DNA of 64,000 nucleotides from Halocatena salina. Lineage in GTDB: Archaea > Halobacteriota > Halobacteria > Halobacteriales > Haloarculaceae. A program made the position numbers and the translations under genes. Location: positions 620,001 through 684,000 of the forward strand of contig NZ_CP096019.1 in assembly GCF_023115355.1 (NCBI RefSeq), read 5' to 3'. The notes beneath the pieces are model-generated. The model searched no databases. It worked only from the letters and a program-made list of their open reading frames with translations, and had not been told where the DNA came from. Below, in pieces: positions 2,389 through 3,869 of this stretch; positions within the stretch are counted from its first letter, which is position 1; every line of letters starts with the position of its first letter.

Positions 2389-2404
2389 GCAATGGGTTTG
2401 TCAC

Positions 2405-2565
2405 CCCCACCTTTTTTGCGTTCGGATCCACCTATTTTCCGCTCGGGTGGCTGCGCCACCCTCCCGCAAAAAATCTGCATTGCAAGAGCGAAGCTCTTGC
2501 AGGCTCCCACTCGCTTCGCTCGCGGGAAGACCAAAAAAAGCCGCTCGCTTCGCTCGCGGTGAGTG
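2405..2565 (-). repeat. nested palindromic element, copy 1 (reverse orientation)
   Basis: Read on the reverse strand, this copy begins with a GC-rich hairpin region followed by T7, then holds an extra perfect hairpin (2481-2501, 9-bp arms around GAA) not present in the other copies. It ends in a nested palindrome whose core GGGTGGCTGCGCCACCC (2445-2461) is bracketed by CGCAAAAAA (2465-2473) and TTTTTTGCG (2412-2420). The arms are separated by about 23 additional bases compared with copy 3. It fills the gap between the unknown gene ending at 2631 and the larE start at 2388. Whether it is a mobile repeat or a transcription signal cannot be told from sequence alone. Confidence 0.7.
2533..2559 (-). 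terminator. hairpin plus T7, likely terminator of the 183-residue gene
   Basis: On the reverse strand a GC-rich sequence with short CCGC/GCGG arms runs into seven T residues, about 70 nt after the stop of the leftward gene that ends at 2631. Archaeal transcription often stops at T-runs. The hairpin is imperfect here but the equivalent position in copies 2 and 3 is a perfect 8-bp stem. Confidence 0.45.
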
Positions 2566-2630
2566 ACCTTGCCTCTCCCGCGACCGCTCCGCGACCGCTT
2601 CCGCACTGCTCCCGCCAGCTCTACTGATTC

Positions 2631-3182
2631 TCAGTCGTCAGCGTGGATGACCGGCGACTCGCCAACGACGCGTGCGACCTCGGGATAACAGGCCCGTAGT
2701 CCATCGAGATCCCCATGCTGGCGATAGTGGCAATACTCCGCCAGCGTTGCGACCAACGCGGCGGGTGCACTCTTCGCCTCGGGCTGTTCGGTCACCTCGG
2801 CTGGCTCTCGATCGTTTTCGGGGGTGTACACCGACTGAACCACCGTCCCATCACGTTGTTCGTGATAGCGCACGCGCCCACCGTTCTCGAACCAGCCAGC
2901 GACGACCGACTCTTTTGCCGCGTTGTAGCGCGTGACGTTCGCTATGCCGGGCAGATCATCGTACTCCGTCTGTGACCGACCAAGCCCGGCCGTCGCCAGT
3001 ATCTCCTCGATCTGGGTAGCGTGCGCGCAACCCGTACTCCGACACGGTCTACACCACGTTCCTGTCCCCACGTCCACGACGTAATACAGTTCAGCCTTCG
3101 AGATTGTCGATCGATCCTCGACCGTCGAGAGGTTTACCGACTCGCCCAGCCGATCCCAGAACTGAAACACTGGTAACGTCAT
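2631..3182 (-). CDS. uncharacterised protein with SWIM-like Cys/His cluster
   Basis: This 183-residue acidic protein is not one I recognise. It carries a compact potential zinc site, C44-x2-C47-x4-C52-x-H54, similar in outline to the SWIM finger pattern (C-x-C...C-x-H) but with different spacing. The C-terminal third is helical and ends in HADD. The start is set at the ATG at 3182 (MTLPVFQFWDRL); the reading frame extends upstream to 3266, but that extension translates palindromic repeat copy 2 and is rejected. It is bracketed by repeat copies on both sides. A role in DNA or protein binding is a guess from the Cys/His cluster only. Confidence 0.6.
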   Translation of the reverse strand: MTLPVFQFWDRLGESVNLSTVEDRSTISKAELYYVVDVGTGTWCRPCRSTGCAHATQIEEILATAGLGRSQTEYDDLPGIANVTRYNAAKESVVAGWFENGGRVRYHEQRDGTVVQSVYTPENDREPAEVTEQPEAKSAPAALVATLAEYCHYRQHGDLDGLRACYPEVARVVGESPVIHADD

Positions 3183-3192
3183 CTCGTTTGCC

Positions 3193-3275
3193 CCGCGAGC
3201 TTCGCTCGCGGCTTTTTTCGCCCACGTTTTTTGTGGGAGTGGTGGCCGACGGCCACCCGAGCACAAAAAAGGTGG
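3193..3275 (+). repeat. nested palindromic element, copy 2
   Basis: Two parts are visible. The first is a perfect hairpin (3193-3211, 8-bp arms around TTC) followed by C and T6. The second is a nested palindrome: outer arms TTTTTTGTG (3227-3235) and CACAAAAAA (3262-3270) around the core GGTGGCC-GAC-GGCCACC (3241-3257), ending in GGTGG. Compared with copies 1 and 3 the outer arms change GCG/CGC to GTG/CAC on both sides, so pairing is kept. It lies just upstream of the start of the leftward 183-residue gene. Confidence 0.75.
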
Positions 3276-3368
3276 AGGGTCATCGCCACCACCGCCCTAA
3301 CGGACAGCCGATCCGATGGTCGAGGCGGGTACGGACTGGCCGCCCACAGCGGGGACATCGCTGTCGCT

Positions 3369-3377
3369 GTTTATTTT
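3369..3377 (+). promoter_or_regulatory. TATA-like box ahead of the tandem-hairpin stretch
   Basis: The sequence TTTATTTTT lies in otherwise GC-rich DNA. A transcript from it would begin near 3395-3402, just before the ATG at 3402 and the hairpin series starting at 3427. It is the only AT-rich promoter-like block between 3182 and 3730. Confidence 0.35.
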
Positions 3378-3399
3378 TCTGATACGATTCGACACCGTT

Positions 3400-3520
3400 A
3401 CATGTCTCTGCTTCGTTCCCAATCATGGGTTCTAGCGGTCATGAGAACCCCAGCGTCGGGTGGTATGCACACCCGGCGCGTTTCAGTGAACGCGCACGCC
3501 CTCATGGCGCTGCTGGCGTC
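3400..3520 (+). ncRNA. candidate structured RNA: three perfect hairpins in tandem
   Basis: Three perfect stem-loops follow one another: 3427-3433 with 3444-3450 (7 bp), 3457-3462 with 3470-3475 (6 bp), and 3476-3482 with 3489-3495 (7 bp). The second and third abut with no base between them, and a fourth, weaker stem (CGCC/GGCG, 3497-3509) comes next. A TATA-like box lies 30 bases upstream and a hairpin with T7 (3738-3764) downstream. Two short frames overlap, 3402-3590 (62 residues, one hydrophobic stretch) and 3425-3553 (42 residues); neither resembles a family I know. A noncoding RNA or a decayed mobile element both fit. Confidence 0.3.
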
Positions 3521-3737
3521 CTCGTTTATCGTTGCTTCCGTCATCACACATAAAGGTACTGATGTAATGAGTAATGTCGTGTCGTACTAACAACTGTTCT
3601 TCAGTCAAATCCCGGTCGAGATGGGACCGAGCTATCGGATCGGGTCGCGTTCTATCTGATGATATCGTACTGACAGGACGTAGTCCAATCCGAACCGTGC
3701 GGTGCGGTCGCGGAGGCGGGAGACGCAGGTGTAGTCA

Positions 3738-3819
3738 CCGCGAGCGAAGCTCGCGGCTTTTTTTGGTCCAGATTTTTTGCGTTCGGGTGGCTGCGCCACC
3801 CTCACGCAAAAAAGGTGGG
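3738..3819 (+). repeat. nested palindromic element, copy 3
   Basis: This is the cleanest copy. The first hairpin (3738-3756) has 8-bp arms around GAA and runs into C plus T7 (3758-3764). The nested palindrome follows: TTTTTTGCG (3773-3781), core GGGTGG-CTGCG-CCACCC (3785-3801) and CGCAAAAAA (3805-3813), closed by GGTGGG. It sits directly upstream of the MutS-like gene. The longest reading frame of that gene runs back through the palindrome, which is a reason to place the true start further in. The T7 hairpin could also terminate the small transcript from about 3400. Confidence 0.75.
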
Positions 3820-3869
3820 CGTACAAAATGTGGGAGTCTTTTTTCCCTTCGGTGTCGAGCACTCAGTCG

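Follow-up and report, generated by a model that had tools for sequence, protein, structure and literature searches.

Three palindromic elements lie within 1.4 kb of a haloarchaeal chromosome, each consisting of a GC-rich hairpin with a T-run followed by a second palindrome between T6 and A6. The question is whether such elements are mobile repeats, double terminators, regulatory RNA structures or the product of a local duplication. The window, i.e., the whole 64-kb stretch of DNA analysed, comprises positions 620001-684000 of the 2.53-Mb chromosome of a member of the genus Halocatena (genome size 4.0 Mb) related to Halocatena pleomorpha and strain YIM A00010. Little is known of the origin and spread of terminators. 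Here we present the anatomy, distribution, covariation and gene context of the element, which is probably a mobile, bidirectional terminator composed of two modules.

The three copies and the unit around them

Direct inspection of the sequence confirmed the three copies with the place and two-part build that an earlier note had given them, including the paired change of both outer arms of copy 2 (T6GTG..CACA6) and its altered inner stem. Copy 1 is inverted, as described there, and carries two extra hairpins plus a second right arm. The features, in positions of the window, are as follows.

about 2404-2561, minus strand: copy 1 (type B, inverted), behind the stop of the 183-aa gene
2541-2559, minus strand: copy 1, hairpin 1
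2533-2539, minus strand: copy 1, T7 (A7 on the plus strand)
2506-2526 and 2481-2501, minus strand: copy 1, two extra hairpins between the first T-run and T6
2468-2473, minus strand: copy 1, T6/A6
2445-2461, minus strand: copy 1, inner palindrome
2428-2446, minus strand: copy 1, first right arm
2407-2425, minus strand: copy 1, second right arm
2631-3182, minus strand: 183-aa gene, bracketed by copies 1 and 2
3191-3277, plus strand: copy 2 (type C), between the 48-aa and 183-aa genes
3193-3211, plus strand: copy 2, hairpin 1
3213-3218 and 3227-3232, plus strand: copy 2, T6, then (after the linker) T6
3241-3247/3251-3257, plus strand: copy 2, inner stem GGTGGCC-GAC-GGCCACC
3265-3270 and 3271-3275, plus strand: copy 2, A6, then GGTGG
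3280-3426, minus strand: 48-aa ORF with a CxxC..H..C motif, zinc-finger-like
3427-3556, minus strand: promoter (TTTATG box at about 3549-3554) and structured leader RNA with a variable hairpin loop at 3463-3469
3736-3820, plus strand: copy 3 (type A), promoter-side outer bracket of the unit
3738-3756, plus strand: copy 3, hairpin 1
3758-3764 and 3773-3778, plus strand: copy 3, T7 and T6
3785-3791/3795-3801, plus strand: copy 3, inner stem
3808-3813 and 3814-3818, plus strand: copy 3, A6, then GGTGG

Copy 3 reads CCGCGAGCGAAGCTCGCGG-C-T7-GGTCCAGA-T6-GCG..GGTGGC..GCCACC..CGC-A6-GGTGG; the linker of the window copies, 7-8 nt between T-run and T6, is GGTCCAGA or CGCCCACG, and the predicted helix extends past the T/A arms into CCAC/GTGG. 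Chance is excluded for the three copies by the number of matches to the core pattern in the window (7 versus 1.0 expected; 0 of 100 shuffles), by the folding z of both strands of copies 2 and 3 (-4.8 to -7.2 relative to shuffles) and by covariance model R1, which recovered these copies from the 64 kb with no other significant match.

The three copies are parts of one repeated unit of about 1.2-1.4 kb with about 15 occurrences in the genome, one of them in the window. The unit comprises a promoter, a structured leader, the 48-aa ORF and the 183-aa gene, and is bracketed by inverted elements. The genes flanked by the copies are not three unrelated ones, as they had been taken to be: a single 183-aa gene lies between copies 1 and 2. 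A 62-aa ORF on the plus strand at about 3401-3589 was dropped, because the region represents the promoter and structured leader on the minus strand.

On the chromosome of the window (G000:C1) the 183-aa gene is present in 14 intact copies, one frameshifted copy and one decayed copy. To judge from its codons (dN/dS about 0.14), it is under purifying selection. No convincing Pfam, NCBIfam, PHROG or PADLOC family or PDB relative was found for the protein, and its structure model reached a mean pLDDT of only 65. The gene occurs in 7 of 7 Halocatena genomes and in 0 of 52 other haloarchaea, with about 30 copies in G005, 20 or more in G001 and G003, and one each in G002 and G006; the 48-aa/183-aa gene pair has evidently multiplied independently in separate Halocatena lineages. 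A dependence of the element on the 183-aa protein was ruled out, since the protein is restricted to Halocatena, the element is family-wide, and G002 and G006 yielded no element with the covariance model although the gene is present. Distant Halocatena lineages likewise carry the unit without an element behind the gene.

In paralogues without copy 2 the stop of the 48-aa ORF overlaps the start of the 183-aa gene (ATGA); copy 2 is missing from this spot in, e.g., L039, L040, L042, L046 and L049. The near-repeat ATGACCCTCC/ATGACGCTCC (minus strand) flanks copy 2, the only copy with such a short near-repeat (about 10 bp). The element has come to bracket the Halocatena unit, has also invaded it as copy 2, and has multiplied along with it. 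The ten unit sites tested carry the unit in YIM A00010 and in H. pleomorpha, in the latter partly as contig ends; at least six of the ten were contiguous or nearly so in at least one of G001-G003, which carry the unit elsewhere. Flanks were exchanged between unit copies in several cases. Regarding L044, L036, L043/L041 and L035 as compared with G004 and G005, the two flanks of the unit lie far apart, each beside a copy of its own, so recombination between copies rearranged the chromosomes.

Two further observations concern the 183-aa gene. At G000:C1:2206922-2207912 a decayed copy with 45% identity lies between two elements in the same inverted arrangement, presumably an older unit or a second subfamily. 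In G004 and G005 several copies are interrupted alike near residues 43-58, the stretch with the Cys motif being matched in two frames; by its recurrence this is presumably a shared variant with a duplicated zinc-binding stretch and not random decay.

A set of 38 leaders from loci L002-L097 was compared. Their outer stem varies in step (GAGAAC/GTTCTC, GAGGAC/GTCCTC, GAGAGC/GCTCTC), the hairpin stem GCGCCGGGTG/CACCCGACGC is invariant, and its loop of 6-7 nt takes 35 forms in the 38 leaders. The variable loop looks like an address or guide; a search for a partner of the loop found none, and pairing with the variable tail of the leader gave no signal (2.71 versus 2.68). The leader RNA had no match in Rfam.

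The element family and its covariation

Across copies, the element measures about 85-90 bp and comprises two modules. Module 1 is a GC hairpin followed by T5-7, often T5C; module 2 consists of a linker (CCAC or CCAT), T5-6, a palindrome, A5-6 and GTGG or ATGG. A T-tract is therefore found on both strands of the element. The words beside the T-tracts (CGCCCACG, CACCCATG, GGTCCAGA and the GTGG end) are shared across genera.

The genome-wide and haloarchaeal search proposed in the earlier note was carried out by DNA search and covariance model. It yielded about 45 element sites in the genome of the window, all listed ones on the main chromosome, which rules out a local duplication of three copies. 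The covariance model detected the element in 5 of 7 Halocatena genomes and in 56 of 57 genomes of the family (22 of 22 genera), so that a repeat confined to Halocatena is ruled out as well. In a phylum-wide draw the element was present in 9 of 11 haloarchaeal genomes and in 0 of 69 non-haloarchaeal Halobacteriota; because the E-values of the covariance model are rough, these absences and those in Halocatena G002 and G006 are the useful control. Elements also occur on named plasmids of Halomicrobium, Haloferax, Halarchaeum and Haloarcula, with no annotation at those sites.

Among 25 full copies (set A2), 98.2% of the cells were paired, and 41 double-change cells were counted versus 12.2 in shuffles; when the partner was slid by 1-3 columns, 0-8 such cells were left. 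Among 28 distinct copies from other genera (set A4), in which the first hairpin also covaries, the count was 100 versus 26.3. Covariation exceeded every shuffle and slide in both sets. The T-tracts of both modules are nearly invariant in A2 and A4, the stems are variable, and both T-tracts and pairing are kept in old, divergent copies of many genera. The earlier note had itself offered a duplication without function as the outcome to expect if the genome held only three copies and relatives lacked covariation; neither is the case.

G-U pairs are rare (11 of 548 cells in A2, 12 of 628 in A4). The paired changes recognized in the earlier note are therefore real, but the step from them to a structure under selection as RNA was too quick: covariation alone is no proof of RNA function, since scarce G-U pairs also fit a structure in both strands or a DNA palindrome repaired on an intrastrand template. 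Strong folding on both strands and the covariation are what an RNA structure with a regulatory or stabilising role in 3' UTRs would produce; the near absence of G-U pairs, the equal quality of both strands, and the several placements that abut an opposing gene or a promoter instead of the end of one gene make such a structure very improbable. Nor was a fitting Rfam family found: a search of Rfam 15 with three loci containing element and leader gave one match only, far below the gathering score. The lack of wobble pairs and the words conserved by the T-tracts across genera would suit a protein-binding DNA site, e.g., one for insulation or for organising the nucleoid. These words are, however, largely explained as the outermost pairs (CCAC/GTGG, CCAT/ATGG), and T-runs alone suffice as an archaeal termination signal, which leaves a protein site the most improbable of the readings considered.

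Placement at genes, insertion and gene-end duplication

The positions of 115 elements from other genera were counted relative to gene ends, as the earlier note had suggested, using genes predicted by a simple codon score trained on the window and not a curated annotation. The elements cluster at stops and before starts. The left edge lies at most 45 nt after a same-strand stop in 28 elements, the right edge lies at most 12 nt (mostly 0-6) from an opposing stop in 42, and in 17 the right edge precedes a start codon by 25-55 nt (mode 38-39), a spacing that just leaves room for an archaeal promoter. Only 1 of the 115 lies inside a predicted gene.

The mark of an archaeal intrinsic terminator, a T-tract of five or more at a gene end, is present. 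Since the element has T5-6 on both strands, neighbouring transcripts run into a T-tract at these placements. The motif T5C occurs in 80 of the 115 copies; in a Haloferax volcanii reporter, T5C alone gave about 95% termination and a hairpin site 59% (PMC7237163). From the placements, the T-tracts and the reporter result we infer a bidirectional terminator or insulator, at which transcripts would actually end: the T-run of module 1 would end those arriving from the gene on the left, and the T-tract of module 2 on the opposite strand would stop those arriving from the right. Two findings count against this reading. Both T-tracts lie before a strong palindrome, which is not a classic terminator of hairpin and subsequent U-run, and copy 2 places a T-tract between the two genes of a unit, where a strict terminator would be expected to do damage.

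Filled and empty orthologous sites were found in close relatives. At L193 in G066, where the repeat is an exact 48 bp, the sister genome G078 is contiguous (empty) at 99% identity. No element is found at L196 in G078 or G029, nor at L202 in G029; both G078 and G066 have one at L202. Six genomes (G008, G009, G010, G065, G075 and G077) have the element behind one conserved methyltransferase gene, and in G030 it is decayed. It is missing there in G025, G027, G067 and G079, all four of which share their genus with a filled genome. Where the element follows a same-strand stop, the order is gene-R-element-R'-flank, R' being a copy of the last codons of the gene with the stop. R measures 40-150 bp including the stop, and R' starts 2-5 nt after GGTGG. 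A downstream duplicate of the gene end was found in 24 of the 28 elements of this class, in 0 of 42 elements at opposing stops and 0 of 17 before starts; 0 of 101 gene ends without an element reached the score (99% limit for shuffled partners, 19). Empty sister sites and gene-end duplication together establish that the element inserts and that the duplication keeps the gene whole. Mobility is demonstrated for a part of the copies only; 87 of the 115 lie outside the duplication class, and the repeat was found in only 8 of these. Copies without R' would be the older ones, which have since come to abut the next stop or promoter. In Halocatena, the last 30-32 codons of the 183-aa gene recur behind the element in L036 and L040. 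At L052 (G000:C1, about 1822100-1822400) a repeat of the first codons of the gene that lies behind the element stands before it (GAGACCGTTCTA..), and the gene start may be duplicated as well.

Of the explanations offered in the earlier note, mobile repeats and double terminators are thus supported together, by the many copies, the presence or absence at orthologous sites and the T-tracts of both strands at gene ends; regulatory RNA is without support. Insertion polymorphism and patchy presence would also be expected of a MITE- or SMR-like repeat without cellular function, in which the palindrome serves transposition only and gene ends merely tolerate the insertion, and the small mobile repeats of Haloquadratum are similar in size, have terminal inverted repeats and move in an unexplained manner (PMC3119063). 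Tolerance alone does not predict edges at such narrow distances (0-6 nt from opposing stops, 38-39 nt before starts), nor the persistence of T-tracts and pairing in old, divergent copies of many genera, and we regard this explanation as unlikely.

Regarding the comparison of R with R', 43 of 58 differing codons were synonymous, versus 25% under neutrality (p 1e-14) and 40% if only R were constrained (p 2e-7); other pairs were identical. Most of the divergence between R and R' seems to have accumulated while both were coding. The synonymous bias is a poor fit to plain target-site duplication and suggests that gene end and element arrived together from another genome, the resident end being pushed downstream. 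Apparent mobility could alternatively result from tandem duplication of gene end and element, by unequal exchange or by fork slippage at the palindrome, with later loss of the second element. In G066, gene end and element form tandem arrays (G066:C2:819256-819966 and 2825385-2825842) with periods of 154 bp (five copies) and 182 bp (three copies), so unequal exchange also acts, and L102 and L111 show the order R-E-R'-E'. At most sites, however, nothing of a second element is seen beyond R', the sequence following R' corresponds to the flank of the empty site in sister genomes, and the mostly synonymous differences are unlike those of a decaying local copy; tandem duplication is accordingly rated as decidedly unlikely.

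As an extension of the mobile terminator reading, we tentatively propose a class of mobile terminators that would travel with gene 3' ends and have no transposase of their own: a foreign gene end with its element would enter behind the stop and displace the resident R' downstream, perhaps through a cut at the base of the palindrome and recombination of the cut DNA. If the main reading as a mobile terminator holds, haloarchaea possess a terminator that settles behind genes without harm, marks its insertion by a visible scar of duplicated gene end, and insulates its neighbours on either strand. Its insertions would form a natural age series, archaeal genetics would gain a ready-made bidirectional insulator, and there would be a mechanism of recombination or transposition that produces gene-end duplications of 40-150 bp.

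Comparison with known systems

Terminators of H. volcanii (PMC7237163) resemble the element in their T-tracts just behind stops, in T5C and in an occasional hairpin before the end, whereas the element combines two modules in one repeat of about 90 bp, with a T-tract per strand, fixed words and evidence of insertion. With SMR-A/B, MITEs and PATEs of Haloquadratum walsbyi (PMC3119063) it shares the short, non-coding, palindromic or inverted-repeat build and the presence or absence between strains. No target duplication was reported for SMRs, which prefer other mobile elements (PATEs, IS605-type), and PATEs have IS605-type ends (PMC3119063). The element differs from SMRs in its gene-end sites and the gene-end duplicate of 40-150 bp, and from MITEs, with their short target duplication of fixed length, in the variable length of that duplicate. 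Bacterial REPs (RAYT) are likewise repeated extragenic palindromes, partly near terminators, but measure 20-40 bp, as against 85-90 bp and two modules here, and a T-tract on both strands is no part of their definition. An origin by Y1/RAYT is unlikely, since Y1 transposases are few or absent in element-rich genomes (two in G000, three in G066, none in the element-carrying G029).

Integrative elements at gene 3' ends show the order gene-att-element-att and rebuild the gene end, one integrase using one or a few genes. The element is like them in its order of gene, repeat, insert and repeat and in the rebuilt gene end; it is unlike them in that each target gene has a repeat of its own, the insert is only about 100 bp and there is no integrase. 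The searchable literature, which leaves most subscription journals outside its scope, describes neither the element nor a duplication of gene ends by it, and the duplication of 40-150 bp matches no mechanism described in the literature searched. What is new here is that an element inserts behind stop codons and that a long copy of the gene end accompanies it.
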